A stretch of 64,000 nt of DNA from Jaminaea rosea (lineage: Eukaryota > Basidiomycota > Exobasidiomycetes > Microstromatales). How positions within the stretch are numbered: position 1 is the stretch's first letter; every line of letters begins with the position of its first letter. This document shows positions 6,041 to 44,045 of the stretch, one piece after another. Under the pieces are notes generated by a model, which was given only the letters and a program-made list of their open reading frames with translations, was not told where the DNA came from and searched no databases. Position numbers and translations under genes: made by a program. The stretch covers positions 310,001-374,000 of the forward strand of contig NW_020289985.1 of the NCBI RefSeq assembly GCF_003144245.1. The letters run 5' to 3'.

Positions 6041-6902
6041 ATGGTGAGCACAACGCGCGCACAGAGTTGTCAGGACGACCAGAGATGTTGCAGGGTTGGG
6101 AGAAGGCATCAGAAAGCGGTCATCGGCATCGCTGCCCTAGGCTGGTGAAAGAGACGGCATGACCAATCGGCCTTTGAGTCGCCCCACGGTTGTGATGACC
6201 TTCCACTCGACGCAAATATCAGAGAGCTCACACGACACATTCCACCTCCGCCTTCCCCGCCACTACAGTCTGACGACGAGGCCCACAACGTCAACTTCGA
6301 GACCGCCCATGCTGGGTCGTCTCTGACGTTCCCCATGCAGTGCTCGGCCCTCAGGAAGAACGGACACGTCGTCATCAAGGGACGTCCCTGCAAGGTGAGC
6401 ACTGGCGCTGATACTCGACACGACAATCGTTGCCTCTTTTGCTGACGACCGCATCCCCTGCGCACGCACAGATTGTCGACATGTCGACCTCCAAGACGGG
6501 CAAGCACGGTCACGCCAAGGTCCACCTCGTCGCTACTGACATCTTCACTCAGCGCAAGTACGAGGACATCTCGCCCTCGACCCACAACATGGACGTCCCC
6601 AACGTCCAGCGCCAGGAGTACCAGCTCATCAACATTGGTGCGTGCCGAGCCTTCCGCAGCTTTCCCCTCCCTCTTCAATGCATGCTGACCCTCATATCTA
6701 ACTTATCCTTTCATCTGCAGACGACGGCTTCCTCAACCTCATGACCGCCGACGGCAACGGTAAGGACGACGTCAAGGTCCCCGAGGGCGACCTCGGAGAC
6801 TCGATCCAGGCCGCCTTTGACGACGGCAAGGAGATCCTCGTCACCATCGTCTCGGCCATGGGTGAGGAGCACGCCCTCGCCTTCAAGGACGTCACCAAGT
6901 AA
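6041..6902 (+). CDS. HYP2: Translation initiation factor eIF5A
   Basis: Hypusine-containing factor that relieves stalled ribosomes, especially at polyproline, and assists termination. The four exons are 6041-6043, 6269-6394, 6472-6637 and 6721-6902, giving 158 residues; exon 1 is the bare ATG followed by GTGAGC. The hypusination loop [12 protein letters not shown] is intact, with the modified lysine at about residue 54. The N-terminal SH3-like and C-terminal OB-fold portions ([11 protein letters not shown], then the acidic KVPEGDLG region) are complete. It sits divergent to the Cbf1-type gene. Confidence 0.97.
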
Positions 6903-7544: not shown

Positions 7545-10500
7545 ATGGCGTCTGAACAGGATGTAGTGTGAGGATTTGCGCTGCCATTGGAATGTCAGGT
7601 CGCCGCGAGCTCACTCGATCCTCCTCCCTCACGCCTGGCCTTGCAGGCAGTTCATGAGCATCGCCCAGTGCGATGCTGACACGGCGCGGTCGCTGCTAAC
7701 GGTGAGCACTGCGCCAGACATGAGCCAACCAGCTAGCTGCTCAGTACTGACTTGCCATAGCGTTCTCCTCTCACCCCTCGCCCTGCCGAACGCAGCGCTA
7801 CAATGGCGATGTGGAACGAGCGATGAGCGCCTACTTCGATGAGGGGGCCCAAGCATCGGCGACGCAGATTGGGCCGCAGCCACAGAACGGCAATGGGTGG
7901 GGCAATCTCGGCCAGCTCGATTCGTCTGGTACGCAGGCAAGGCCTCCCTCTCCTAAGCGCCCCACATCTCCGGTCAATGGTATTGGAGGTGGTGGAAACT
8001 TTACGGGCAAGGGAGGTGAGTGTCAGCGATGAGCGCTGCTAGAGAGATGACTCGCTCAGACGCCTCTCCCGCACGCTCGCAGACCGCAGCGATCCAATCG
8101 ATCTCTCAGGTGCAGACGGGTTCAATGATCCCGAGCTACAAAAGGCAATGGAGGCCTCGATGCAAGACCAACGTCCGCAAAGGGGTCAGGGTGCAAGACA
8201 AGGTGCTGGGGTAAGTGGGCGCGCGAGCTTCTCCAGTGATGAAGGCTGTTACGGCTACAGCGACGAGGAGGATGACGATGACTTGGACATGGAGACAGAT
8301 GCCGACGCAGAGCAGGACGACGAACAGGGCGCAGAGCATGCAAGGCCTCAGAGGAGAGGCTTGGGAGCCAAGCGCAAGCAGACACACCAGCAGCAAATGT
8401 ATGGCAGGAAGAGCACAGGCAAGCGACTCCATTACAGCTGCAATACCTCTCGTGGCGCTTGGTCACCTCCTGATATACCTGCTAGCCAATTCAGCGACAA
8501 CAACAGCGCAGCGACAGAAGACAAGGACTGGGCCCTAGGCCAGCAACGTCGCCAAGCCCCACCGCCCGGGCCTGTTCGCCATTCTCTACGTTTACGAGAT
8601 GCAGCATGCAGGGAGGGTCACGAGAGGATCTGTAGCTCCAGCGTCTCAAATTCTCTCACCTCATTTGGGCCGCGTAAGGCCACGCTGCGCCAACCCAGCC
8701 CTCCGCATCCCTACAAAGACGACATCTTCACGCCTCAGAAATGCACGAGCCAGAAGCGGGCGCTGACCAACCTTGCTACAGCCAAGGCCCGGGAGGTTGC
8801 TCAAGCAGGCGCTGTCAATAGCGATGGAGGCGGCTGCGATTGCGAAAATGAAGCTGGACCCTCCATGAGCCGCCGAGGCGCTTCCAATTCGGGCAGAACC
8901 ACCAAGCCCAGGGCTGCTACTGTCAAGAAGCCTATCCCCAAACCGAGTCTCCCGCTGGAGAGCAGCAGCGACGAGCATGGCGCCAATGGCGATGACGACC
9001 GACCACCTCGTTCCCTCTTCGACCTCGTGGCCAAGCAGAGGCAGAACTCGAAGTTCACGCATCGCAAAATGGGCAGGAATACGTGGGCGAACAAGCTAGC
9101 AAGCGCAAATGCGGTATGCATCAAGCGACGTGGCTGGTCTGCTCTTCAAATCTTTTCGCTCGTACATCTACTCCACTTCACTCTCGTGCACCACCCTTAC
9201 GTATCGGGGTCGGACCGGTCGACGATGAAGTCATTGGCAAGCAAGCTTCCGTCTTCTATGCTGCTCGTGCCTCCGACCAAGCCCAGGCGCAGGCGCGACA
9301 CGCTGTCCTGGTCTTGCCCTTTGGCAGCTCTGGTCCTCAATCGTCCTCCATGCCCGTCTACGCCTTCAACAATCTTACCCCACTGCAAGGCACCTGACCG
9401 GCGCTGACCCTTCATTTCTCCCTTTCCTCGCACCCGCCGCAGGAGATGTCCGACGAGGAGGCCATGGAGCAAGCAATCAAGGCGAGCATAGGATTCGACC
9501 AGCAAAACGCCTTTCAGGCTCCACAAGATTTCCAGCTTCCGCCACAGAGGCGACAAGATGGGCAGTGAGTTACGGGCGCGTATTCCTTCCGGCCCAGATC
9601 CGATCTCACGTCATCCTTGACCCCTATTTCGCAGCCCAACCGCTCTTCTGTCGCCCATCCCTGTCCTTTCCAGCATCGCTCTCCTCCTTCAAGCCGTCCT
9701 CGCATGTCCGAGCGCCCGTCGTGCTCTCCTGCACTTCCGCCCAGTGGACGAGCGCGTCGTCTCTTCGTCATCATCCTCAACACACAGCCTCTCCGGGTAC
9801 AATCAAGGCTTCTCACCGTCTGCCCTCGCGTACCGCCAAAACTCAGACTATCGTGCCCTCGAAACCTCTGTCCGTTCTGGATTCGAGACGGCCTGGCGTA
9901 CTCAGATCTTGGCAGGATTTGCAACATTAACAGGTCATGCAGCATGTGCTATCGGTGATGTGGCAGCTGATGTGCCTCAGGAGACGCTGAGGAAGGCCAG
10001 TAGAATTGGCGTAGCTGGTGGCGAGGGTAGTGCAGAGGTGGTGTCTTCCTACTACAAGCATTTGACGGGAAGCTGGTATGATGCAAAGCGATACGTCGAG
10101 GAGGTGGGCTGGGAAGGGATGCAGCAGCAAGACGGCGAGGCTGCAGTGAGGCGGCCGTGGGAGCTCCTCAAAAGGTGAGCGACGCAAGATGGCACAGAAA
10201 CGATCTCCTCGTCCGACACGCTGACCTCAGGCCCCGCGCACTCTTAGGACCTTTCACTCCGTTGGTACAGCCCAGCCGCCATCCCCTACGGCACGAGATC
10301 GCCTCGAAGACCAAAATGCAGTTGAGGTGGCTCTGCACCCAGATGGGGCTGGCCCTACAACAGTTACCGCCGCACTGGCGACCTCTCTGGCTACTCGCCA
10401 AGCTTCCATCACGCAAGCCTCAAATGTGCTTGCGTTCTCCATTCTTCCTTCCTCACGAGCGACGTCGCCATTCGGACCAGCTCCAGCCCCAAGCCAAGGG

Positions 10501-11505
10501 GCGGGACCATCGACGTCACCGGCATCCCGTATCAGCATCGAGCCCGTCATCTACCTCGACAGATTCATGTGGGAGCGCCGCTGCCATCTTGACCTCTCCG
10601 CACAGAAGAGCCAAGAGGAAGAGCTGGCGCTGCGCCAAAAGACAATCAATGAGCTTGAAAAGAGGCGCAATGAACTCTGCAACCATGATGGTGCGAGTAC
10701 AGCTGCGCTTCTCCGCCAGTCGGTGGACTATTTGGAGAACAAGGCCCAACGCAAGGCAGGGATGACCAACGGCAGCAAAGGCGATCAAGATGGAGAGGCG
10801 GGGGACCGCCTCCATCTCGAGCAACGCCGAGAAGCGGTCGCCTCTCTGGCTTCTATCCTGACCGCCCTTGACCTCGAGTCAGCCCGTCTCTCGGAGTCCA
10901 TCAGCTCACAGCTCACCGATCTAGGCGAGGCTCGGCGCTCCATGCTCCGCGAACAGGATCAAGTCTTCGAAGGGGACGAGTGGAAGACGATGCCCTACAG
11001 ACTCAGGGCTGTGCTTGCCACCAAGGCGAGCGGGATGGCATCGAGTGATGTGGTCTATTTTCGTGCCGGGCGGTCGGGAGGCTGGTGGAAGAGTGAGGGG
11101 CAGGGGGAGGTCGTCTCGCTCGAAGAGTCGGAAGTCTTGGCTTCCACGACTAGCGGCGACAACAACGGCACGGCGAACTCCTCGTCAGCAGTCGCACCCT
11201 CAGCGATTCCGTACTATCTCCTCTACAACGTAGCGTCAGAGGACGAGGATACAGACGAGCAAGAGGAGGAGAAGTACGTCCCACCGGTATTGCGCGAGGC
11301 TGTGGAGCAGGACAACGAGGTGTTGGACGGGATGCTGCTGTCGCTTGGGGCGGGTGATACGGAGGGAATAGATGCGGATGGAGATGCGACTATGGTAGCA
11401 GACGCAGAGGCAGAGAGGGGAATATCGAGCAGCAAGCCAGCCGACGAGTCTAAGCCGTCAGTCGTGCCGGCACGCGAGGAGATAGAGCAGAGTGCTGAGA
11501 CGTAG
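7545..11505 (+). CDS. USP25/28-like protein with UBA, two UIMs and a degenerate catalytic domain
   Basis: Proposed exons are 7545-7567, 7647-7701, 7796-8015, 8083-9113, 9443-9564, 9635-10174 and 10248-11505; all phases agree (3249 nt, 1082 residues). Order: a UBA-like helix bundle (about 1-45, DVERAMSAYF), UIM 1 (about 116-131, PELQKAMEASMQ, after IDL as in USP28), a disordered Ser/Asp-rich region, UIM 2 (about 444-459, EEAMEQAIKASI), then a USP fold. The C-terminal half matches USP25/28: a DRFM helix like DRYMYR, a coiled-coil insert, MPYRLRAVL like VPYRLHAVL, and PYYLLYN. The Cys box is not recognisable (VLSSIALLLQ where USP28 has NTCWFSAVIQ; Ser496 at the Cys position) and AGHYW is ASSDV (Ser930 for His). 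It is probably a ubiquitin-binding pseudo-enzyme. The 8.2-9.4 kb exon structure is the least certain; a GTAAGT donor at 8211 is an alternative. Confidence 0.7.
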
Positions 11506-11629
11506 CGATGGACAGATCTCCTCAATCGATCAGTCGAGGTCGCACGACCGGCCTTTGCGGAAATTGTGGGCGACAAATATATTCTGCTTTTAGCAAGCAG
11601 GATCGTCCCCGCAGTGTCAATAACCGTGA

Positions 11630-12553
11630 TCAAAGACCCTTGCTCTTGATGAATTGGGCTGAGAGGGGGAGGGATGGGGCCAAAGGAGCGATTGTCAGCA
11701 GCACGTCGCTTTGCGTCTCCCTTCTCACCTCGTGCTTACCGTACTGGCTCTCGTAGTCAGGATGCCATCGTGACAGCGCAGGCCTGTCCTGAATAATGTC
11801 GTTGACATTGTACTCCATCCTCGCTTGATCAAGGGCAGTAGGCGTGTCGTTGTCTGGGCACAGAACGTAAAAGGCATCCCTCGACTTGTTGATCTTCTCT
11901 AGGCAAAAGTCGGCCGTCTGCTCAGCGCTCCACGCTCCCTCTGGCTTGGCCTTGCCACTCTTTGCGCCTGTGAGACCTGTGTGCACCCAGCCAGGGATGA
12001 GCAGGTGAACACTGATGTTGCCCTTGGTCACCTCGTCCTGACGAAGCTCATGGGCGAGCTGCTCGGTGAAGACTTTGGTCGCGGCTTTGCTGATGTTGTA
12101 TGCTGCTCCTGAGCCAGGAGGGGTGGTGATGCCCTGCTTCGACCCGGTATTGCAGATCAAGGCCGGCTGGCCTCCCTGCTTTATCAGAGGCAAGAAAGTG
12201 TGGACCGTATTGACCACTCCATGGAAGTTGACATTCATTATCCTCTCCCACCCTTCAGGATCAGAGGCCTTGGTCGGTCCGCCGACACCAGCATTAGCAT
12301 GGAGAATGGAGATGGGCTTGCCAGGAAACTTGGTGGCAATGGCATCGCGGAAGGAGGCCAGGCTCTCCTTGCTGGTGACGTCGACGGGCAAAGCTTCGAT
12401 GCCGTTGGGAACAGCTCGGAGCGCAGAGTCATCGCTATCACCTACGGCTACGCGAAGCCCTTGCTTGGCGTAGAGCTGCGCGAGGGCGAGGCCGATACCA
12501 GAGGCGCCTCCTGTAATGACAGCTACGTTTCCTGATTTGATTGCTGGGTGCAT
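11630..12553 (-). CDS. Short-chain dehydrogenase/reductase
   Basis: NAD(P)-dependent oxidoreductase of the classical SDR family; the substrate cannot be inferred. The Rossmann motif TGGASGIG lies at residues 14-21, the NAG motif at 87-89 and the catalytic pair Tyr152/Lys156 in YNISK. The exons are 12553-11740 and 11658-11630 (minus strand), giving 280 residues. The terminal 81-nt intron has a GTAAGC donor and CTCAG acceptor but is a multiple of three with no stop, so retention would give a 307-residue form with the same last residues. It ends 125 bp from the convergent USP-like gene and starts divergently from the forkhead gene. Confidence 0.88.
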   Translation of the reverse strand: MHPAIKSGNVAVITGGASGIGLALAQLYAKQGLRVAVGDSDDSALRAVPNGIEALPVDVTSKESLASFRDAIATKFPGKPISILHANAGVGGPTKASDPEGWERIMNVNFHGVVNTVHTFLPLIKQGGQPALICNTGSKQGITTPPGSGAAYNISKAATKVFTEQLAHELRQDEVTKGNISVHLLIPGWVHTGLTGAKSGKAKPEGAWSAEQTADFCLEKINKSRDAFYVLCPDNDTPTALDQARMEYNVNDIIQDRPALSRWHPDYESQYGKHEVRRETQSDVLLTIAPLAPSLPLSAQFIKSKGL

Positions 12554-22139: not shown

Positions 22140-22506
22140 GCTGAGATGGATGCTGAGGATGCTGGTATAGTTGAAGTTGCAGGAGAAAGAAAAAGGAAGA
22201 AGGAAGAATTGGCTGTATGCTGCTCGTGCTGCGAGATAAGGACCGTCGAAGGTCAGGCGGCGCTGCCGGGTAGCGCGGGCTCCACCCCACTTCTCGACAT
22301 CTCCGAGGTCCGACCGACAGACCATGCGACGGACGGAGAGGAGCAACGGAAGGCGGACTCGAGAGACGAGACGAGCCGCGCCACGCCACGCGTCGCGAGA
22401 AGGGCAAAGTGTTGGATTCCAATTACGCTGCGAGCCTGCGACTTGGATCCGTGCCACTCCTCCTTTGATCGGTGCATCTCAGCATCTTCGCCCTCATGAC
22501 AGAGCA
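22140..22506. promoter_or_regulatory. Divergent promoter allantoicase fusion/MMS22-like
   Basis: A 367-bp bidirectional gap. Apart from the GATA element at 22234-22240 I see no clear motif. Open frames cross it in both directions, but the conserved starts are at 22139 and 22507. Confidence 0.5.
22234..22240 (+). promoter_or_regulatory. AGATAAG, candidate GATA-factor site
   Basis: A perfect HGATAR match 95 bp upstream of the allantoicase fusion start. Allantoin-pathway genes in fungi are classic targets of nitrogen-regulatory GATA factors, so function here is plausible, but a 7-bp motif occurs often by chance. Confidence 0.35.
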
Positions 22507-25500
22507 ATGACGAGGTCTCCGAGCCAGGATGGCAATCAAAGGGAGCGCAGAGGCGACACGACGACATGGCCCTTGACGCAGCCCCCTCTGCACGGCGCGT
22601 CTTCATCTTCTTCCTCTGCGCCCCTCAGCGAGAGCGAGCCTCCACGACTACCTGCTTCCCAACCTCTGCTCAGAACAGGATCAACAGATTTAGACCTCAA
22701 CCTCGCAGTGCCGGCTCAAACCGAGTCTGTGCCCCTCGTCACAGATCAGATCGAAGCAGACGATGTCCCACTCGAAACGGCCCCGACTCCTATCACGGCG
22801 AGCTCGTTAGGACGGCCGCGTGAGCCATCGCCGCCTCAGATGGACGTCGACGAGCCTACGTACTCTGATGCACAGCGCTCTGAACGTCATATCATGGCTA
22901 CTCAAGGATACCGTGAGGTCTACGTCGACCTCACGAACAGTCAAGCGACCTCAATCCTCGAGCCATCTCAAGAAGCTGGCCCCAGCCACTCTCCTGCTCA
23001 GCACTCTCGCGAAACTACCCCTCCTCCTCCTCCTCCTGCTCCAGCTACAAGCTCGGCGCGTCCCGCAGAGCCGGATCCGCCCATACCCTCCGCCCTGCTA
23101 CAGCCATCTCCCCCGCGACGCAACCTCCGAACGCGCAAACCTGGGCAGCTGCACCCTTACACCGTCGAGATGGCCCTATATAAGCGTCGCCTGGAGCGTA
23201 ATGACTGGGAGGACGCCGTGGTCACAGACCACCACATGCGTCGACGGATGCGCGAGGAGAGGGAGAGAGCGGCTGCGAATGAGCTGCCTGTTGAAGGAGA
23301 TGAGGCGTCTTCTTCGTGGCTCGTGGCGGATCTGCCGGGTGACAGGGAGGGGGAGGAGAGGAAGAAGAGGCGGGCTGAGGCAAGAGAGGACAAGAGGAAG
23401 AGGAGAGAAGAGAGGCGAAAGGAAGCAGAGAGGGTCGCTGCGGCTGCAGTAGCTGAAGAGAGTCAAGCGCGCAGGGCTTCTTCAGCCAGCAATACAAAGG
23501 GCAAGGGCAAGGCAAAGGAGCCTTCAGCGCCGCCTCGTCAGGGCCTGTCTGCGAAGGAGCTGTTCGCTCGCTATGGTGGCCTTATCAGCGACGAAGAGGA
23601 CGACAGCGACGGCGATGATGCAGCGGGTGGTGGTGTGGATCGCTCCCCCGCTCTAGCTAGACAGTCGTCAGCAAGAGCAGACCGCCAGCTCGGTCCGAAG
23701 CAGCGGCAGCGGCGCCGCACTGCGCAAGCCGACAATAGCGACGCCAGCAGCGGCTCAGGATCTCGCTCGCCCTCGCCCGTCCTGCCACTGCGAAAGCGCC
23801 GCTTAATCAGCTCCTCGTCCTCTTCCTCATCATCCTCTCCGCACTCACCGACTCGACCCAGGTCTGCAGCAAGATCCCACTCAGCATCCTCATCCTCGTC
23901 GTCCGAGTCCAGCGAAGAAGAAGAGCTCGATCTCGACCGCTACTTCAGACAGCTCAAGCGAATGATGCCAGTCAGTATGGCGCGCAAGTACATCGCTGAC
24001 CTGCGCGCCATGCGCAAAGGCAAAGCGTATCACTCTGATGGGCACGTCAGTGATACGCCTGAACCCTCCAATACCAGCGAGAGCGAGGATGGCGAGATAG
24101 ACGGGGGAGACGCGACGATGACCCCATCGACGAGCCCGGCAGAAGCTGCTGCCCTTCGGCCAGGAGAGGCGAGGAAACGCTTGGGTAGGGGAACGCCTAC
24201 AGGCGATGCGAGATTCGAGCTGGTGGGGGACTCGGATAGTGACTCGTCTTCCAGTGCAAGAAGCGCCGTAAGCGTTCGGTCATCGAACTCTGAAGGCCAG
24301 AGGAGAGATTACCAAGTGTACGACGGCGATATCCGGTGGTGGGCACAGCCGACTGAGGAGCGTCCGGCTCCGCGACGAGAGGAGGACGCGATTGACCGCA
24401 TGCTTTCCAGAGCTGTGGGAGCGCCGAGAAAGGCGAGGAGACCGGGAGGCGGAGGGGCGAAGAGGATGAGGGCGATGAATGCAACGTCCGCATCTAGACG
24501 ACAAGGCGCAGTAAGTGGTGGTAGGCAAGCTGGTGGATCGAGCGCCCTCAGAGAACGCTCCGTCAATCATCCTGCGCTCGCTTCAAGCGTTCCGAAGCAG
24601 CCGTCAAGGGCTAAGCGTAAGCGATACGGTGGCGTCTCTCGTCCCTCGCGATCTTCAGGCCCTCGTAGCGCTGGCGGACCCCACCCGCTCGCTCCTAATC
24701 CGCCCCTTGTACAACCGAAGGTACGCAGGCCCTTGGATCTGCGCCAGGATGATGTCTTGTTCGATGTAGAGCTTCTTGCTCAGCCGCTTCCTCCGTCGCG
24801 CGACGACGAAAGGGGCGAAGACGAAGACGCAGCAGCCGCAAGAGAGTACGCGCAGCGCGTTCGTTCGTATCGAGAGCAGAGCCAGCCCAGCCGACCCCTC
24901 GTGAGGAGGAGAGTGGGACGCGGCGGCGATGGGCGTAAGGACCTACATGCTTCGCCAGCCGGCCAGCCTCACTCGGCAGCGGGTCCCAGGCCCGTTGTAA
25001 GGACAGGAAGTCGCGATTCCACATCGTCCAAGTCCCCGAGCGTCGCCACGAGTCCGCAACCACCGGGGCAGCAGCGCAACAAAGGCTTACGTCCGTTCCT
25101 CCGAGTCGAGTCGTGGGACAGACCATCCAGCAGCACAGCGTCAGGTCAGCTCTCTCGTGCTCAGCTTGACGCGGATGCATGGGGTGACCTTGCCAACCTC
25201 CGGCTCGACTTTGGTATCCGGCCTCTGCCAGCTGGCTTATCGTTCAGCCCTGCTTCAGCCATCGGGCGTGGTAGGCTGTTTGAGTTGGTCGAATTGGGCG
25301 AAGGTGGGAATCAGGAGAACGCTGCGCTTTCACGCATAGCTGGACGTACGGTGCTCGGTGTGGACCTACCTCCGCATCCAGATGTGGCAGTCATGCTGCA
25401 GCTGATGCCCGCCATCTTCGATGCCATCTTCGCGGCGACGGAGACGATTCGAAGCGGCAGAGGCGATGCTGGTGAGGAGATCAACGGCGAGAGCGCTCCC

Positions 25501-28500
25501 GACACGCTCAGCGCAGCGGTCACACGCACAACACATGGCATTGACGATCTACTGCGATATCTCGCGCAAGGCATCACCTCGCTGGCCGACTTCGTTCCAC
25601 CTAGAGAGGTGCGACAGTACGTGGCGTCGATCAAGTCACAGATGGTCCATCTGTTCGATCGCTTCCAGGCGGCGCCTACCGCCGACCAGGGTCAAGAAGG
25701 GCGCCAGCGGCAGAAGTCATTCGAGACCCTGCTGCTCACTCTGCGCTGGTTCGACGTCGAGGTCAGCTGGCGGCACATTGCTAGCAAGGGCCTGCAGAAC
25801 GCCGATGCAATCGACTTTGAGGAGAAGCTTGCCGATGAGGAGGAGCTGATTCTCGCGTGCGAAGGGCTGATGATCAGCTTGCTCTCTCACGGCATGCATC
25901 GTACGATGCACTGTATCAAGACCAGAGCAAAGAGAGACAGCAGCATCGACGCAGCTCCCTCACACATCGACGATACCTCCGCCGAGCTCTGGGTGTCCCT
26001 CATCCACCTCCTCGGCACCGCCGCCACCCTGCTGGGCCCGCACATGGCCTTCTGGCCGGTTCTCGACTCCAGCCTCTCCCAATGGCTCAAGATTCTCCCG
26101 CCACGCCGCCCTGTCCTAATGAGCGAAGCCATTTGGTTCGTCACGCTCTCGCTCTGTGCCCTCTCTCAGTTCTCCGCAGCGAACGGCACCACCCTCTCCC
26201 GCCCACAGCTGAGACAGCACTGGCCCTTGGTCGTGCAGGCCTTCGCTGCCACACGCTTGAGGTACGACGAGTCGGTGGAGCAAGCCATGCCCAGTGCTGC
26301 GCTGGCAAAACGAGACCAGTACTTGCGGGCTATCACGCAACGATGCTTCAATCTGGTGTCTCTCTGGCGCTGGTCAGGTGAGGGAGCCGAGGGCGCCCTC
26401 AGCAAGATCTTTGACGTCTTCAATGCGCACAAGTTGGCGGATCTACCCACGGAGGAGGATCACGACTTTCCCCCCTTCCTGCGCGACTTCAACCCAGAAT
26501 TGCTCTTTGATGAGACGAGCAGAGAGGGGACTACGTACCATGTCTTCCTCAAGCTACTCGCTCATGTAGCGCGTAGTCTGCAGGCCACAGCTTCACCGGA
26601 AGACGATCCTGCTGCTGCGGCGACCGCCGCGGATCGCAAAATCTCCCGTCTCTTCTCTCGCGTCTGCCCGGTCCGGGTCATGACTTTCAGTAAAGCCAAC
26701 CCTCCAACAGCACGAGAGCGATCCAGTCTCTTCAATCACTACTCCGTCGCCACGCTGCACCTCTTCCTCGTCCCCTCTGCGGCCCAGCAGCGGCTGAGGC
26801 AAATCAAGAGCTTCCTCGTCTTCAAAGAGGCGGATGCCCAAAGCCAGGTAACGTGCATCCGCGCCATGATGTACGCTGCGGTAGTGCATCGTCACTTTGA
26901 ACTGGATGTCGCGCCGATCACAGCCTGGTTTGGGAGTATCTTCAAGACACTGCTGGGCGATGCAGAGGAGGTCAATCGCAAGGTCGCGAGGGGAGGTGGG
27001 GCCACTGCTGCGGCAGGCGAATACTTTGAGACGCAGAGGCAGGCGAAGCGGGTGACTAGCTTGCTCGTCGCAGCATTGCGGTCGATCCAGCATGTCGTGG
27101 AGCATGTAAGTCTTGGAGGTGACCAGCAGGCATCCTCGCCATCGCTGCGCTACCCCGATCCACAGCTCATCGATCGAGCTTGGACGGCCGACGTGCTGGA
27201 GACACAAAGCGCCATTGACCCCGCTGTGGGGGTGGAGGTGCTCAAGTGCGTGCAGAGCTTTCTGGTGCAGCGCAGCCTCGTCGTGGCAAAGCTGCGGCCA
27301 CGGGATCAGCGGGGCAACACAGCGGCTAATGGCACGACGACCACACCTGCGCCTCGCAACGAGGAAAGCCAAGACAGCTTCGCCGAGTTGTTCGACGATG
27401 TTGGTGACTTTGACTTTACAGATCCAGCGCTCGACAATCTCTTGGATGGAGGCGAGCCAGCGGCAAACATGGATGGCTGTGCTCACATGTCTGTCGACGC
27501 AGCGCCATCAGCTACACTCATCGACTCTATCCGCAGCAAAGATCGTCTCTTCGCCGAACAGCTTCGTAGTCATACATCCCCCGCCCTCTTCTCCCTCATC
27601 TCCAACATCTTCCACCCCGACCGCGCGCGAGAGGGTAGACTCACTTCATTGGGCATCTCCCTCGAAGACACTGCCCCATCCGCAGCTACCGGTAGGCAGC
27701 GTCATCAATTGGACGCCCTCCTGAAACGTGGCGCACGTCGACGTTACCTCGAGCTTCTGGTGGACTGTTGGGCGGGTTGTGCTCATGTGTTGGTAGAAAA
27801 TGGCCTGCGAGACTGGGGGTCATACGTGACGTATGGGAACGAGTGTTGGAGGAGACTGGAAGACCCCGTCGGGAAGAGGGACGTCGCACTGCGCTTCCTA
27901 CGGGACGTGGTTGCGCTTGACCCTGAAGTGGTCCGAAGGCACGACAGAGCGAGGCGGAGTGGCTCGAGGACAACACACGACCACGGCAATACCGATGGGC
28001 AGCAGCAGCATCAAGATCACTATGGCGAATTCTTGCAGGTGTGGTTCGCAGCCGCACCTGCGAGGTCGCTGTCCGTGCAGGCGGAGTATACGCACGCTCT
28101 CTTCTATCCGGACGTCGAGCACGATGGTCAGGATGTAATGCCCTGGTTCCCTCGCTGTTCCCTGCCCGCGTCCCCGAGCGGCAGTGGCTACGGTCAGCTT
28201 GACCTGCCCCTCTTCGAGTCACAACGAACCAAGCTGATCCTTGGCGCGATCCGTGGCATGCGGCGCGACTACGAGGGCGGTCACAGTCATGAAGAGGAGG
28301 CTGGGGATGACGACGAAGTGGAAAGGGCCTTCCGACGGACACAAGTCTTCCCATGTCTTTCTGCCCTCCTCTCGTCGATGCGCATCCACCTCGAGGGGAT
28401 GCGCATTACGCCGCGAACCTTTGCCAATCTCAACGGAGGACGTAGAGGGAGCAGCAGCGATTCAGACGACAGTGATAGGGGAGGCAGCGCCAGAAGAGAG

Positions 28501-28686
28501 TCGAGCGAACGAGGCTACCTCGCCTTCTGTAGGCACATACTGCAGGGCATTGAGCGCGAGGCTGGTGAGAAGATCTTGAGGGGGGCCAGAGCTGAGGTCG
28601 AGCGGACTTGGGGGATTGTGAGGAGGAAAGAGGGAGAGATGGGCGTGAATGCGGATGCGGGTGCAGGCGCGGAAGGCGGCAGATGA
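22507..28686 (+). CDS. MMS22: Mus7/MMS22-family replication-repair protein
   Basis: A single uninterrupted frame of 2059 residues. The assignment rests on the short conserved box RTRKPGQLHPYTVEMALYKR followed by DWEDAVV (about residues 200-240), on the following segment with KELFARYGGLISDEEDD, and on overall length and architecture: a long acidic, Ser-rich disordered N-terminal third (DSDSDSSSS runs, SSSSSSSS tracts) and a helical alpha-solenoid-like C-terminal two-thirds. Family members (S. pombe Mus7, yeast Mms22) recruit a cullin Rtt101-Mms1 ligase to stalled forks. The start chosen is the first ATG after the divergent promoter; an in-frame ATG at 22324 would extend into it. The lack of introns over 6 kb is unusual beside its neighbours. 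Confidence 0.68.
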   Translation: MTRSPSQDGNQRERRGDTTTWPLTQPPLHGASSSSSSAPLSESEPPRLPASQPLLRTGSTDLDLNLAVPAQTESVPLVTDQIEADDVPLETAPTPITASSLGRPREPSPPQMDVDEPTYSDAQRSERHIMATQGYREVYVDLTNSQATSILEPSQEAGPSHSPAQHSRETTPPPPPPAPATSSARPAEPDPPIPSALLQPSPPRRNLRTRKPGQLHPYTVEMALYKRRLERNDWEDAVVTDHHMRRRMREERERAAANELPVEGDEASSSWLVADLPGDREGEERKKRRAEAREDKRKRREERRKEAERVAAAAVAEESQARRASSASNTKGKGKAKEPSAPPRQGLSAKELFARYGGLISDEEDDSDGDDAAGGGVDRSPALARQSSARADRQLGPKQRQRRRTAQADNSDASSGSGSRSPSPVLPLRKRRLISSSSSSSSSSPHSPTRPRSAARSHSASSSSSSESSEEEELDLDRYFRQLKRMMPVSMARKYIADLRAMRKGKAYHSDGHVSDTPEPSNTSESEDGEIDGGDATMTPSTSPAEAAALRPGEARKRLGRGTPTGDARFELVGDSDSDSSSSARSAVSVRSSNSEGQRRDYQVYDGDIRWWAQPTEERPAPRREEDAIDRMLSRAVGAPRKARRPGGGGAKRMRAMNATSASRRQGAVSGGRQAGGSSALRERSVNHPALASSVPKQPSRAKRKRYGGVSRPSRSSGPRSAGGPHPLAPNPPLVQPKVRRPLDLRQDDVLFDVELLAQPLPPSRDDERGEDEDAAAAREYAQRVRSYREQSQPSRPLVRRRVGRGGDGRKDLHASPAGQPHSAAGPRPVVRTGSRDSTSSKSPSVATSPQPPGQQRNKGLRPFLRVESWDRPSSSTASGQLSRAQLDADAWGDLANLRLDFGIRPLPAGLSFSPASAIGRGRLFELVELGEGGNQENAALSRIAGRTVLGVDLPPHPDVAVMLQLMPAIFDAIFAATETIRSGRGDAGEEINGESAPDTLSAAVTRTTHGIDDLLRYLAQGITSLADFVPPREVRQYVASIKSQMVHLFDRFQAAPTADQGQEGRQRQKSFETLLLTLRWFDVEVSWRHIASKGLQNADAIDFEEKLADEEELILACEGLMISLLSHGMHRTMHCIKTRAKRDSSIDAAPSHIDDTSAELWVSLIHLLGTAATLLGPHMAFWPVLDSSLSQWLKILPPRRPVLMSEAIWFVTLSLCALSQFSAANGTTLSRPQLRQHWPLVVQAFAATRLRYDESVEQAMPSAALAKRDQYLRAITQRCFNLVSLWRWSGEGAEGALSKIFDVFNAHKLADLPTEEDHDFPPFLRDFNPELLFDETSREGTTYHVFLKLLAHVARSLQATASPEDDPAAAATAADRKISRLFSRVCPVRVMTFSKANPPTARERSSLFNHYSVATLHLFLVPSAAQQRLRQIKSFLVFKEADAQSQVTCIRAMMYAAVVHRHFELDVAPITAWFGSIFKTLLGDAEEVNRKVARGGGATAAAGEYFETQRQAKRVTSLLVAALRSIQHVVEHVSLGGDQQASSPSLRYPDPQLIDRAWTADVLETQSAIDPAVGVEVLKCVQSFLVQRSLVVAKLRPRDQRGNTAANGTTTTPAPRNEESQDSFAELFDDVGDFDFTDPALDNLLDGGEPAANMDGCAHMSVDAAPSATLIDSIRSKDRLFAEQLRSHTSPALFSLISNIFHPDRAREGRLTSLGISLEDTAPSAATGRQRHQLDALLKRGARRRYLELLVDCWAGCAHVLVENGLRDWGSYVTYGNECWRRLEDPVGKRDVALRFLRDVVALDPEVVRRHDRARRSGSRTTHDHGNTDGQQQHQDHYGEFLQVWFAAAPARSLSVQAEYTHALFYPDVEHDGQDVMPWFPRCSLPASPSGSGYGQLDLPLFESQRTKLILGAIRGMRRDYEGGHSHEEEAGDDDEVERAFRRTQVFPCLSALLSSMRIHLEGMRITPRTFANLNGGRRGSSSDSDDSDRGGSARRESSERGYLAFCRHILQGIEREAGEKILRGARAEVERTWGIVRRKEGEMGVNADAGAGAEGGR

Positions 28687-34632: not shown

Positions 34633-35065
34633 AATGTTGCAGAGCCAGGAGAAGCAGGGTGGCGAAGATGACGTCGAGACGAAATTGGAGGGGAGCAGAT
34701 GGCAAGCAGAGGCGTGCAGAGCAACTGGGCAGGACAAAGTCGTAGCTGCCCTGCAGTGAAGCAGGAGAGCAGACAAAGTAGCGTCTCCATGTAGCAGCAG
34801 CATCCATTTTGTCAATCTTTCATCTCTTCCAGCCATTCACCGTTGCCTGGCCTGGTCAGCGCTATTGAAGCGTCTAGCCGCGAGTGAGGCTCCACCGGCT
34901 CACGCGCTCGACGGGTGGCCCCCTCGCACGGACGTCGTCGGATTGACGCCAAGGACAATGATTCCCCGCTCTCCCTCGCTTCATCCTTTGACCTCCGTAC
35001 CTTACCTCACATCCTCTTCATCGCAGCTTTTTTCGAGCAGCAAGCAGGTGAAACGCAGCACAAGC
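34633..35065. promoter_or_regulatory. Intergenic region caprin-like/ATG5
   Basis: About 430 bp. The ATG5 frame is open across 34865-35065, but these bases are pyrimidine-rich and the encoded residues are not conserved-looking, so I treat them as leader. Confidence 0.4.
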
Positions 35066-36508
35066 ATGTCATCGACATCGCTGCGCCCATCAAACGTGAA
35101 TTCGCTCGCTGGCACGCCGTCGGGCAGCGCAGTAGCTGGTCCATCACGGTTGCCATCCTCTTCCCCATCGCCCGCTGTCAATATGGATCCCTCTCACCTC
35201 TCCGAGCGAATCTTCTCTGCCGCTCTTCCAGTCGTCATATCCATTGCTTCGGATGAAGTTCTTCCATCCTCATTATCAGAAGGCGCCCCAGCGGACCTGA
35301 CGTACTACACCACCCTTCGACGGACGGGCTACCTTTCTCTGCACCTACAAGAGATCAAGGAGAATCTGATAGATCTCGTCCTCCCGCCTTCCTCATCGAC
35401 GTACAAACCAGAAGATCTTTGGCTGTCCTCCGGCTCGACACCGCTCAAATGGCACTGGCCCATCGGCCTGCTCTACGACTTGACGACACTGAACGTGTGC
35501 TCCCCTGCCAAAGCCCTCACGCCTTGCGACCCCTGGAGATTGACATTGCACCTTCGTAATCCCCCGCACGCAAAGCTTCCTTGGCCTACAATTGCTCCTG
35601 CATCGTCCTACTCTACCTCAGCGGTAGGCATTCACGACGCTTTGGTAGAGGCAACCAAGCAAGCATACATGTCCCAGCTCAAGGAGGCGGACTTCATCCG
35701 TAACGGGAACACCAAGAAGGTCAACAGTCTGAGGAAACAGGAACTAGATGCTGTCTGGGAAGCGCTCGTTGCTGGAGAGTATGAAAAATGGATGGGAGTG
35801 GTGGGCAGACTGTTGCCTGCTCAGGGGTCTTGGCCGGATGAAGGAGTTGGGGCGAGGCCCGCATTAGCGCACCTGCAATCAACGACGTCGAGTATTCCGA
35901 ATCGAAGCAGCTCCCTTCATCCTGCATCGTCCTCGACGGATGACCATCTCGAGGGCGCAGATGACAGCGCAGTGCCATCCGCTTCTGGACCAGGCACCTT
36001 CAGCAAGAGCAACTCTGGCGCCTACACCAGCCTGCCAGGGTTGAAGGCCATCCCGGTCAAGATTGTATTGCAAGGAGGGACAGTAATACAGGAGGGGGTG
36101 CCGCCGCTCGTCGTGCTAGGGGGTGCGGGCAGCAATGGCGGTGGACAAGCGGATGGCAATGGCAACGGGAACGGTTCAAATAGCGCGACAAGATCCCTCA
36201 CGGTAGGTGAAGCCTTGCACGTCCTCCTGCCGGCCCTATTCCCCGCCTCTTCCACTCCAACTATCGAGCCATCACAAGCATCGGGGGCCGATCCAAGCTC
36301 ACTCGGCATCGACTTCTCTGGCTTTGACAGCACCGAAGGCAAGGCTCTCCCGGACCCGCCGGCTCCTCCGCCACCCATGGCAGTTCCCATTGTGCAAGGG
36401 GTGCGCATACCTCTCGAGAGCAGCATGCCGTGGTTATGTAGGGTGATGAGTGGAGGTGAAGGGTGGTTGACAATCGTCGTGCTGCTGCTGCCGATCGGCG
36501 TGTCATAG
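35066..36508 (+). CDS. ATG5: Autophagy protein 5
   Basis: Conjugated to Atg12 and bound by Atg16, it forms the E3-like complex for Atg8 lipidation at the phagophore. A single exon; 480 residues from the chosen ATG at 35066. In-frame ATGs at 34865, 34958 and 35183 are alternatives, because the conserved part starts only with ERIFSAALPVVISIASDEVL. The UblA part shows YLSLHLQEIKENL and the Atg5 hallmark TPLKWHWPIGLLYDL followed by PWRLTLHLRNPP. The Lys that receives Atg12 is in SQLKEADFIRNGNTKKVNSL, which is fully conserved. The C-terminal UblB is split by long Ser/Gly-rich insertions and ends MPWLCRVMSGGEGWLTIVVLL. It is therefore longer than the yeast protein (294 residues). Confidence 0.9.
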   Translation: MSSTSLRPSNVNSLAGTPSGSAVAGPSRLPSSSPSPAVNMDPSHLSERIFSAALPVVISIASDEVLPSSLSEGAPADLTYYTTLRRTGYLSLHLQEIKENLIDLVLPPSSSTYKPEDLWLSSGSTPLKWHWPIGLLYDLTTLNVCSPAKALTPCDPWRLTLHLRNPPHAKLPWPTIAPASSYSTSAVGIHDALVEATKQAYMSQLKEADFIRNGNTKKVNSLRKQELDAVWEALVAGEYEKWMGVVGRLLPAQGSWPDEGVGARPALAHLQSTTSSIPNRSSSLHPASSSTDDHLEGADDSAVPSASGPGTFSKSNSGAYTSLPGLKAIPVKIVLQGGTVIQEGVPPLVVLGGAGSNGGGQADGNGNGNGSNSATRSLTVGEALHVLLPALFPASSTPTIEPSQASGADPSSLGIDFSGFDSTEGKALPDPPAPPPPMAVPIVQGVRIPLESSMPWLCRVMSGGEGWLTIVVLLLPIGVS

Positions 36509-40742: not shown

Positions 40743-43700
40743 TTACGACCACCGATGAGAGGGTCGCCCTTTGCCCGATGACGCAAAGGTGTCATCGTAC
40801 CCCTCCTGCCTTCGACCTCTGCCGCCTCGCTTGCCCTGAAAGCGGCGCTCCTCGCCATCGGAGTCTCGTCTACTCCCCAGGCGCAGCTCTGGCTCCCTTC
40901 CTTGTCCGAACGAATATCCCCCTCGTCGCGCCGCTGGCTTGTCCTCTTCCATTCCCCACAAGGGCGCATGGCCTTCCCCTGCCCTCCTACCACCACGACC
41001 ACGCCTCTCCTGACCCTCCAACTGGCTCCCATCCCCTCTGATGCCCAAATGCGTCAATCTCTTCTCCCTCGCTGCCCTCTGAGCCTCAAAGCTCAACTCG
41101 ATAGCTCTCTCTGTCCTCTTCCTCAATGCGGCCGTCTTGGTTCGATCAGAGAAAGCCAGCGGGAAGCGGAAGGAGAGCCATAGGTAGACACCCAGTGAAG
41201 CGTGCAGTGATTCCAGGCCTCGGATGACTTCGTCGTTTATGGGTGACCAGGCGGGGACGTACGCCATGAGTTGGCGGATGGTTGGCTCTTCTGCCTCTGC
41301 AGCCTCCTTCTGTCCGGAGATGCTCTGCTCGTTGTCCCACTCGCGTCTCATCTTCTCCTCCAACGCTTCAACCACGCTCAAGCTTTTGAGCAAATCCAGC
41401 CTCTCAACTACAGAGTCAAAGAGGACCAGATTGCCCAACGCGTACTCGCGGACGAAGAGAGCGAAGGCTGCCAGGACGGAAGCACTGCGTACATCGATGG
41501 GCGCCAGGGCGAAGGCGTTTTGCTCGCTTACCGTCAACACGGAGCGACGCTGTGACGGGCCGACCAGGGCAGGGGACTCGTCCTCGTCCTCGTCGTTTGC
41601 TGAAGTGGATGAGGCTGCCGTGGCGATCGAAGACGCGCGAAGCGCAACGGCGCGACTGTGCCCTGCTTGATCGAAGTTGGCCAAAAAGTATCGCGAATCG
41701 TCAATCGCAGCAAAGAGGCTGAGCTCGGCGTAAACGTTGTGAACTCGACCAAAGGCCGCGGCCTTGAGACGGAGCTGTGCTTGGCGATGTGATTTGGACG
41801 ACTTGGTCTGAGGAGAGTTGAGCCACGATCCTTGCCCTGCCTCCTGCTGCCCCTCTGCCTCGGTGAGAATCGATTCTACGTTCTCGAGCGCATCGCTCAC
41901 CACCTTCATTCGCCCGCCAGCTCGGGACCTGCCCCTCCCGCGCCCTCCACGCTGTGCAGCTTGCTTCCTTTCCTCATCCTTCTGCCTCTCCCTTTCCTCC
42001 TTCTCCTCTCTCTCCAGCCTCTCCTCAGCCTCGCGCGCGAACACCTCGTCGTCAGGTGGCAGGAGGGCCATGAGTCGCTCGATGTTCTCCGGAGGAGGCT
42101 GGACGCTCGCCCTCGTCAAATCCGCCCTTGGACTGGCCAGAGCGGCACGGACAACGTCCATATCTCCCTCCTGCAGGGTCAATGCCTGCCCGCTGGACGC
42201 ATCGTCCGCCTCACCATTCAGACCCATCCCATATCGCCCTGCTCGCCCTGCGATCTGCTTGATCTGAGATGCGGAGAGCGGAATGGTTTCCTTGCCGTTG
42301 AATTTGTAGACGGTCTCGAAGATGACGCGCTTAATGCGTAGATTCAATCCCATGCCGACCGCATCTGTCGCAACCATCAAGTTGGCATCAACCCCCTCGT
42401 TGAACATGCGCGCTTGTGTTGCTCTTAGCTCGGGAGGTAGAGACCCATAAGCAAGAGCACAGCGGAGCTCCCCGCCCTCTGACCCGTCCGGGGCCGCCGG
42501 CAGGGGTATGCCATCAATTCGCTTCTTGAGCGTAAAGATGGCGCTCCTCGCAAAGCCCACTAAGCAGTCACCGGGACGCAACTTGGTCAAGTCTCCATGT
42601 AAGCTCTCCTCAGCTACCTCGAGCGGGGTGAGGCGCTCGTACTCGTGCACCGTCAACTCATCACCACAGTCTGCCACCAGTCGCTTGATGAGTGGAACGG
42701 CGGATGGTTCACCGCAGAGATGGACCTCCTTGGCTGCTACGCCTAGCAAAGCTGTCGTCCAGGCATGCCCACGTTGAGGATCGGCGATCATTTGGATCTC
42801 GTCGATCACGGCCACATCGAAACGTTGCTTCTGATCGACCATCTCCACAGTGCTGCTCTGCAGGCCAACGAGAGGCCCCATGGTTTGCTCCTCTTCGCCC
42901 GTCTTGAGATTGCAAGGCCTAGGTGATACACCAGGGGCAACTTTGCCATTGTTGATCCGATCCCAGACCTCGTGAGCCAAAAGACGTAGCGGGCCGAGGT
43001 AAAGGCCCGTGTGAGCGCGTACAAGACGGAGGAGGGCGCCGTGCGTTTTGCCTGAATTAGTGGGACCGACGTGGAGGTGAATGGAGCGCTTGATTGAGCG
43101 AGCTTCGGGATAAAGATCGGCAGGATTGCGCACATCAAGGAGGGAGCGCGTGAGGGTAAGGGTATGCTGAGAGGTTGCAGCGATGACGGCGGGTGATGAA
43201 GCAGAAGGCTCTTCGGTGCTGGGCTGGGCGTCCGCTGCCAATTTGGCTAGCTGCTCCTGTACCCAGTCAAGGAAGGCGACAGTCTGGGAGCGAAGTAGCG
43301 CGCGTGTGACTGCGTTCGCGTCTTGCTCGACGACGGACGCAGGAATGCCGTCTACGATGTTGCGAGCGGTGGTGAGGAGGGGTAGCGAGGGCGCAGGCAG
43401 CACTGCTTTATCTGCCGACTTCGATGAAGAAGGTATCGGGCTGAGCAGCATTCTCTGCTCTTTTTCTATGGAGTAACGCTGATTCTTAACCCATTGGCGA
43501 AGCAATGCAGCAATGTGACCCCCTTGGCTGTCGGTGCCCTTGCTTTGGTTCGTAAAGACGCTCTTGAGGACAAGCTCGGCGGCCTCGTGCGAGAGACCGA
43601 GTGCCCGTATCCTTCTCGATATCAGCGTGTCTCTGCCAAGCTGCTTGATGGCCTCCTCCAACTGACTAGCAACCGTTGCATCCTTGGCCGGCTCTGGGAG

Positions 43701-44045
43701 CGAGTAGTCTGGCACTCTAGTCTTACGTGCGTGCAGCTCAATGACGCTATTCGAGGCCTTCCAGATGGTAGGCGGCGGTGTCAGGGACGAAGAAGAGGGG
43801 TCTCGACCTTTGCCGCTGTATCCTCTTGATGGGCCATCCTCCTGTCGGCGCGAGCGCGATCGCTGTGGCTGCTGCTGCCGGCGTTGGTGCGTCGAAGTGG
43901 TGAGGAGGCGAGACGTTGAGAGGTGGAATGCTTGCGGCAGGGTGAGACTCAGGATGCGACGTGATGAAGATGATGTCGCGCCTCTGGTACTATAACCCGC
44001 GATGGCAGCAGCATTGATCATGACGGCAGGGGTGCCTATATGCAC
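40743..44045 (-). CDS. SUV3: Mitochondrial ATP-dependent RNA helicase SUV3
   Basis: DExH helicase of the mitochondrial degradosome, which feeds RNA to the exonuclease Dss1 and controls intron and mRNA turnover. A single exon; 1100 residues. An Arg/Ser-rich N-terminus (STSRLLTTSTHQRRQQQ) suits a mitochondrial targeting sequence. Motif I is GPTNSGKT at residues 327-334, motif II is DEIQ at 415-418, motif III follows in HLCGEPSAV, and motif VI is QIAGRAGRYG. The C-terminal SUV3 domain (SLFAAIDDSRYFLANFDQAG, and the segment around WLSFRFPLAF) is followed by a basic Gly/Arg-rich tail. It is longer than yeast Suv3 (737) mainly through charged insertions such as the Glu/Arg-rich repeat after ALLPPDDEVFAREAEE. 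A second in-frame Met at residue 9 could serve as start. Confidence 0.94.
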   Translation of the reverse strand: MHIGTPAVMINAAAIAGYSTRGATSSSSRRILSLTLPQAFHLSTSRLLTTSTHQRRQQQPQRSRSRRQEDGPSRGYSGKGRDPSSSSLTPPPTIWKASNSVIELHARKTRVPDYSLPEPAKDATVASQLEEAIKQLGRDTLISRRIRALGLSHEAAELVLKSVFTNQSKGTDSQGGHIAALLRQWVKNQRYSIEKEQRMLLSPIPSSSKSADKAVLPAPSLPLLTTARNIVDGIPASVVEQDANAVTRALLRSQTVAFLDWVQEQLAKLAADAQPSTEEPSASSPAVIAATSQHTLTLTRSLLDVRNPADLYPEARSIKRSIHLHVGPTNSGKTHGALLRLVRAHTGLYLGPLRLLAHEVWDRINNGKVAPGVSPRPCNLKTGEEEQTMGPLVGLQSSTVEMVDQKQRFDVAVIDEIQMIADPQRGHAWTTALLGVAAKEVHLCGEPSAVPLIKRLVADCGDELTVHEYERLTPLEVAEESLHGDLTKLRPGDCLVGFARSAIFTLKKRIDGIPLPAAPDGSEGGELRCALAYGSLPPELRATQARMFNEGVDANLMVATDAVGMGLNLRIKRVIFETVYKFNGKETIPLSASQIKQIAGRAGRYGMGLNGEADDASSGQALTLQEGDMDVVRAALASPRADLTRASVQPPPENIERLMALLPPDDEVFAREAEERLEREEKEERERQKDEERKQAAQRGGRGRGRSRAGGRMKVVSDALENVESILTEAEGQQEAGQGSWLNSPQTKSSKSHRQAQLRLKAAAFGRVHNVYAELSLFAAIDDSRYFLANFDQAGHSRAVALRASSIATAASSTSANDEDEDESPALVGPSQRRSVLTVSEQNAFALAPIDVRSASVLAAFALFVREYALGNLVLFDSVVERLDLLKSLSVVEALEEKMRREWDNEQSISGQKEAAEAEEPTIRQLMAYVPAWSPINDEVIRGLESLHASLGVYLWLSFRFPLAFSDRTKTAALRKRTERAIELSFEAQRAAREKRLTHLGIRGDGSQLEGQERRGRGGRRAGEGHAPLWGMEEDKPAARRGGYSFGQGREPELRLGSRRDSDGEERRFQGKRGGRGRRQEGYDDTFASSGKGRPSHRWS

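Follow-up and report, generated by a model that had tools for sequence, protein, structure and literature searches.

A probable USP25/28-type pseudo-deubiquitinase with a predicted ubiquitin-binding front end in the basidiomycete Jaminaea rosea

In a 64,000-nucleotide stretch of the Jaminaea rosea genome (NCBI RefSeq assembly GCF_003144245.1, contig NW_020289985.1, positions 310,001 to 374,000 of the forward strand; hereafter the window, in whose coordinates all positions are given), a seven-exon gene at 7545-11505 on the plus strand encodes a 1082-residue protein that has an N-terminal ubiquitin-associated (UBA) domain, a C-terminal region matching the human ubiquitin-specific proteases (USPs) USP25 and USP28, and replacements in all three columns that hold the catalytic Cys, His and Asn of those enzymes. 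We consider it likely that this is an intact, catalytically dead protein of the USP25/28 type, which would bind ubiquitin through its UBA domain and ubiquitin-interacting motifs (UIMs) and act as an adaptor or cofactor. An initial annotation, made from the DNA letters, had proposed a pseudo-enzyme related to USP25/28, a proposal that is well supported by the C-terminal homology, the replacement of the triad and the lack of any rescuing Cys or His box in the sense frames of 9114-11700.

C-terminal homology, replaced catalytic columns and gene structure

The relationship to USP25 and USP28 is anchored at the C-terminus. Using reference letters taken from PDB chains, single-pair blastp comparisons (BLOSUM45, no composition adjustment) matched residues 868-1027 with USP25 (E=1.6e-6) and residues 877-1020 with USP28 (E=2.5e-4), and the local scores of residues 868-1032, 77 against USP25 and 72 against USP28, exceeded the respective maxima of 56 and 52 seen in 500 shuffles each. 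With the coiled coil removed (residues 905-1032), the scores of 67 for USP25 and 63 for USP28 were reached by 1/3000 and 2/3000 shuffles, and the same piece reversed scored just 38 and 30, respectively. A two-sequence USP25/28 profile found the C-terminal stretch in hhalign (P=1.6e-4, probability 50%) and, in HMMER, matched the C-terminal piece at E=9.7e-7 in a search space of one. When a C-terminal piece of 163 residues, picked after the blastp result was known, was searched against the PDB, USP25 chains took ranks 1-3 of 177,635 sequences, at weak E values of 0.67-0.99. Within this region lie PYYLLYN (11209-11229), which a three-way alignment places against USP25 YCLMYIN, and VPPVLREAVEQDN (11278-11316), which blastp, the alignment and the PDB search identify as the counterpart of USP25 LPPDLRDFVEEDN, a tail that is not known from outside USP25/28. 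On these sequence comparisons, homology to human USP25/28 holds for residues 868-1032.

In the three-way alignment with USP25 and USP28, the columns of the catalytic Cys, His and Asn are occupied by Ser496 (TCC at 9669-9671), Ser930 (AGT at 11044-11046) and Glu947 (11095-11097). The first lies in a degenerate Cys box, VLSSIALLLQAV (9663-9698), placed by the alignment, and the other two in a degenerate His box, PYRLRAVL...ASSDVVYF...WWKSEG (10993-11100), placed by the alignment and the PDB search. All three substitutions named in the initial annotation, Ser at the Cys position near residue 496 (VLSSIALLLQ), ASSDV with Ser for His near residue 930, and WWKSEG in place of WLKYND, were borne out at these positions. 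The other letters of GNTCW and GHYW are also replaced, as are those of QQQDVSEF except for an aligned V and an aligned S. Five residues before the Cys, the Asn of the oxyanion hole aligns with Ser490. Cys-box and His-box patterns have no match in any sense frame of 9114-11700, nor the His-box pattern in any frame of that interval; two relaxed Cys-like matches lie on its opposite strand. The hidden normal GNTCW box that the initial annotation had weighed against itself is thus absent from the sense frames of that interval. Because the catalytic triad is missing from its columns, we class the protein as a pseudo-enzyme relative of USP25/28 and not as an active member of the family, and the replaced boxes suggest that it is catalytically inactive.

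The exon model is the single combination with GT/GC-AG sites that survived when small boundary variants were enumerated. It consists of exon 1 with the start codon (7545-7567), exon 2 (7647-7701), exon 3 (7796-8015), exon 4 with the IDL motif and the first UIM followed by a long insert not present in USP25 (8083-9113), exon 5 with a UIM2-like motif and RRQDG (9443-9564), exon 6, to which a weak collinear alignment assigns the first half of the putative degenerate USP domain (9635-10174), and exon 7 with the second half of the domain, the coiled-coil insertion, the C-terminal helix motif and the stop codon (10248-11505), all, like every feature of this gene, on the plus strand. All six introns (79, 94, 67, 329, 70 and 73 nt) are GT-AG, the terminal stop is the only one, and under a codon model trained on nine long mechanical open reading frames (ORFs) from the window, the modelled frame outscores both other sense frames in 7/7 exons. 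When re-located in this model, the motifs named in the initial annotation, as well as its coordinates, proved correct, with IDL starting at residue 105, the UIM-like motifs at 115 and 447, RRQDG at 479, VLSSIALL at 494, YLDRFM at 766, PYRLRAVL at 913, ASSDVVYF at 928, WWKSEG at 943 and PYYLLYN at 985.

Two stretches of this gene stand out in length. The fourth intron (9114-9442) is, at 329 nt, much longer than the others (67-94 nt), and, read in the frame of exon 5, positions ~9210-9330 within it have a codon score slightly above zero; it was kept as an intron because, by eye, it offers no good donor. The other is the exon 4 insert, which separates UIM1 from UIM2 by ~316 residues and reaches with its last few into exon 5; it is not found in USP25, contains many acidic and basic stretches, and has a mostly positive in-frame codon score. 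An alternative that skips 8212-9442 by way of an internal GTAAGT was rejected on the reasoning, from coordinates, that it would put exon 5 out of frame.

Predicted ubiquitin-binding front end and coiled coil

The protein opens with a UBA_4 domain (Pfam PF14555) at residues 5-44, which scores 48.3 bits against a cut-off of 21.8 (E=8.5e-13) and is spread across exons 1-3 (7557-7849). A Pfam scan of the whole protein returned this domain, an overlapping UBA_8 and a sub-threshold DivIC match at residues 780-837, and nothing else. The IDL motif (residues 105-107; 8097-8105) stands where USP25 has VIDLTGDD, and is followed by UIM1, DPELQKAMEASMQDQR (residues 115-130; 8127-8174), which in a Pfam scan of a short piece scored 19.3 bits against PF02809 (E=0.0009), short of the cut-off of 21. 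The UIM2-like motif, DEEAMEQAIKASIGFD (residues 447-462; 9452-9499), is recognised by pattern and has no Pfam match even when scanned as a short piece. Of the two UIMs that the initial annotation regarded as kept, the first is near threshold and the second is a match by pattern. A UIM-like pattern written after the motifs had been seen occurred at least twice in 27/5000 shuffles of residues 1-486, a count that is inflated because overlapping starts were counted.

Further along, YLDRFM (10552-10569) aligns as the counterpart of USP25 YLDRYM, and fold prediction suggests a two-helix hairpin formed by residues 762-836 and 841-905 (10540-10971), with predicted local distance difference test (pLDDT) values of ~52-75 over most of its length, at the site where, according to PMC6509359, USP25 and USP28 carry a dimerising helical insertion.

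The diverged first half, alternative explanations and neighbouring genes

A number of results weigh against the interpretation as a dead USP. Pfam UCH was not matched at E<=10 by the whole protein or by pieces of it, and the three USP pieces gave nothing in Pfam, or sub-threshold DivIC and Sox_N matches. In the PDB, the whole protein found no USP at E<=10, and neither did the YLDRFM/coiled-coil piece or the Cys-box half find one, so that USP25 was recovered by 1/4 window queries. Aligned end-to-end, the first half gave a score reached by 7, 8 and 20/1000 shuffles across gap costs for USP25 (residues 440-850) and by 21, 51 and 6/1000 for USP28 (residues 470-850). Residues 545-665 gave no signal (369/500 shuffles for USP25 and 147/500 for USP28), and the same was true of residues 655-765 (141/500 and 340/500); the piece spanning UIM2 and RRQDG (residues 444-484) was equalled by 111/500 shuffles for USP25, as against 1/500 for USP28. 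Two unspliced exon pieces, folded without relatives, gave poor models (mean pLDDT 48.4 and 43.3), of which the hairpin at 762-905 was the least poor part. A fold search, made with the first of these models, returned among the matches shown (best 50 of 297) coiled-coil-type or unrelated chains at E of at least 0.49, which we do not treat as evidence.

Other pieces of the protein gave mixed results. The USP25/28 profile matched the first half at E=0.0069 in a search space of one; the scores of the Cys-box piece (residues 478-520) were reached by 18/500 shuffles for USP25 and 4/500 for USP28, those of the YLDRFM piece (755-835) by 3/500 and 12/500, and those of the second coiled-coil helix (845-912) by 344/500 and 32/500. 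The IDL-UIM1 piece (100-130) was equalled by 30/500 shuffles for USP25, and by 490/500 for a USP28 construct that does not include that part. We accept the first half as a USP domain because it is collinear with the secure C-terminal anchor, and not by evidence of its own; its USP fold is thus a prediction from weak collinear similarity.

The failure of Pfam UCH to match, and of PDB searches with either the complete protein or its first half to return any USP, could be explained if the gene encoded no USP at all, and instead an adaptor with UBA and UIM in which the likeness of coiled coil and C-terminus to USP25/28 arose by chance or convergence. This is unlikely, given that the C-terminal match persists without the coiled coil, that USP25 ranks at the top of the PDB search with that region, and that UBA, IDL, UIM, RRxDG, YLDR[FY]M, PYRLxAVL and VPPxLRxxVExDN occur in collinear order. 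The strong divergence of the catalytic boxes and of much of the first half might also be read as decay, the gene being a pseudogene of an active USP25/28-like enzyme in which the boxes have drifted away. We think this very unlikely for a reading frame of 1082 codons that has no internal stop, GT-AG at six introns and in-frame codon bias in seven exons, and in which each box has been rewritten at several positions and not by single changes.

It is still less probable that the protein remains a protease, acting through a serine or through displaced residues: the His column holds Ser and the Asn column Glu, the presumed oxyanion-hole Asn aligns with Ser490, and the His-box pattern is absent from every frame of 9114-11700. 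In favour of such activity are the Ser in the Cys column and the precedent of USP39 and USP52, for which PMC10919355 reports activity via non-conserved residues. The least credible alternative is a wrong exon model in which a hidden exon restores a normal Cys box, for which the codon score inside the 329-nt intron could be cited, and against which stand the lack of Cys-box and His-box patterns in the sense frames of 9114-11700 and the continuity of RRQDG into the degenerate box over a 70-nt intron. A USP25/28-type protein that is intact and catalytically dead therefore remains the interpretation we favour.

The gene has neighbours on both sides. Upstream, the preceding gene ends (6702-6902) in what is presumably the C-terminus of eIF5A, and a convergent short-chain dehydrogenase ORF (11630-12553, minus strand) lies ~125 nt from its 3' end. 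Elsewhere in the window are an unbroken ORF of 2120 aa with a Mus7/MMS22 family domain (22324-28686), an ORF with all three ATG5 domains (34865-36508) and a SUV3-like helicase ORF (40743-44045, minus strand).

Proposed role and comparison with known systems

Since all three cutting residues have been lost and the presumed ubiquitin-binding parts kept, the protein is probably a ubiquitin reader or the helper of a partner enzyme, and not a cutter. The initial annotation went further and read this combination as a sign of selection for ubiquitin binding without cleavage, which stays a conjecture. We envisage descent from a USP25/28-type deubiquitinase whose protease chemistry would have been lost through the changes Cys to Ser, His to Ser and Asn to Glu, leaving the UBA-like domain, IDL, a single UIM or a pair of them, the degenerate body of a putative USP fold, the coiled-coil insertion and the USP25/28-like C-terminal motif. 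The UBA domain and UIM1, perhaps together with UIM2, would hold ubiquitin or its chains, and a partner would be bound by the coiled coil together with the inactive USP body, so that the protein may serve as both reader and scaffold. By analogy with Rup1 and Ucp6 in yeasts, of which we take Ucp6 to be the counterpart of Rup1, the likeliest partner would be a deubiquitinase that resembles Ubp2 and is itself active. Pseudo-deubiquitinases can serve as allosteric activators or scaffolds, according to PMC10919355.

Rup1, as described in PMC2626285, tethers Ubp2 to Rsp5 through a PPPSY motif at 131-135; PMC3777918 states that it stimulates Rsp5 auto-ubiquitination, reports an increase of Ubp2 activity and calls its role unclear, and PMC2935449 describes the binding of the UBA protein Ucp6 to Ubp2 in S. 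pombe and regards this interaction as conserved in S. cerevisiae. The Rup1 sequence that we compared is a provisional one, not taken from a database (630 aa, as against 671 aa for the real protein), and its sole agreement with published data is PPPSY at 131-135 (PMC2626285). From residue 131 onwards, and at ordinary gap costs, it scored 67 against USP25 around EIAPVLTILFNELETN...PLEFYPQLY (1/300 shuffles) and 64 against the same stretch of USP28 (0/300); at loose gap costs these became 11/300 for USP25 and 2/300 for USP28. Its alignment with the window protein was collinear at loose gap costs (1/1000 and 2/300 shuffles) and not significant at ordinary ones (21/300). Against the USP25/28 profile it was weak in hhalign (P=0.14, or 0.062 once the window protein was added), and it reached E=0.0062 in HMMER in a search space of one. 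A PDB search with this provisional Rup1 sequence listed 12 sequences, all but a capsid protein matched at the N-terminal UBA; a USP catalytic domain was not among them.

Two points count against the connection: it depends on a provisional sequence, which makes it a lead and not a test, and the window protein contains no PPxY, the motif by which Rup1 meets the Rsp5 WW domains. The N-terminal UBA is shared with Rup1/Ucp6, and the window protein may be a local form of this known cofactor family. More tentatively, as an idea that we hold possible and would stop short of calling probable, Rup1/Ucp6 and the window protein could form one dead-USP25/28 family, in which case Ubp2-Rup1 would pair an active deubiquitinase with a ubiquitin-reading pseudo-deubiquitinase that raises its activity, and these fungi may keep USP25/28 only in dead form. 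Should cofactors like Rup1 prove to be dead proteins of the USP25/28 type, what Rup1 does would become directly testable as pseudo-enzyme activation of Ubp2 and its coupling to Nedd4-type ligases.

Searches for orthologues through exon 7 gave 4 viral-contig and 26 prokaryotic-contig pattern matches, and those through the three-sequence alignment 119 and 35, respectively, of which tblastn confirmed 0 in either case. Among the matches listed in the open-access literature, and judging by the listing, we found no USP25/28-type pseudo-deubiquitinase; to that extent the suggestion in the initial annotation that no fungal pseudo-enzyme of this type has been described holds. It does not hold more broadly, as yeast Sad1, the USP39 orthologue, is described as a pseudo-USP in PMC10919355, and S. 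pombe Ubp10 and Ubp13 as USPs without catalytic residues in PMC2935449. By these descriptions, USP39/Sad1 and Ubp10/Ubp13 resemble the window protein in being USP-domain proteins that lack catalytic residues, although a ZnF-UBP domain, as in USP39/Sad1, was not found in the window protein by the Pfam scan. PAN2/USP52, which has a USP fold and for a long time was counted among the pseudo-enzymes according to PMC10919355, is likewise comparable by description.

The closest comparison is with human USP25 and USP28 (PDB 5o71, 6hel, 6h4i, 6hej), for which PMC6509359 describes an architecture of UBA-like domain, IDL/SUMO-interacting motif (SIM) and UIMs. The window protein shows the same order of elements, with a UBA-like domain, IDL/SIM, UIM-like motifs, RRxDG and the Cys-box region followed by YLDR[FY]M, a predicted coiled-coil insertion, PYRLxAVL, the His-box region and VPPxLRxxVExDN. 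Unlike USP25 and USP28, however, it has all of its catalytic Cys, His and Asn columns replaced, carries the ~316-residue insert between UIM1 and UIM2, and stops 62 residues past the VEQDN motif.

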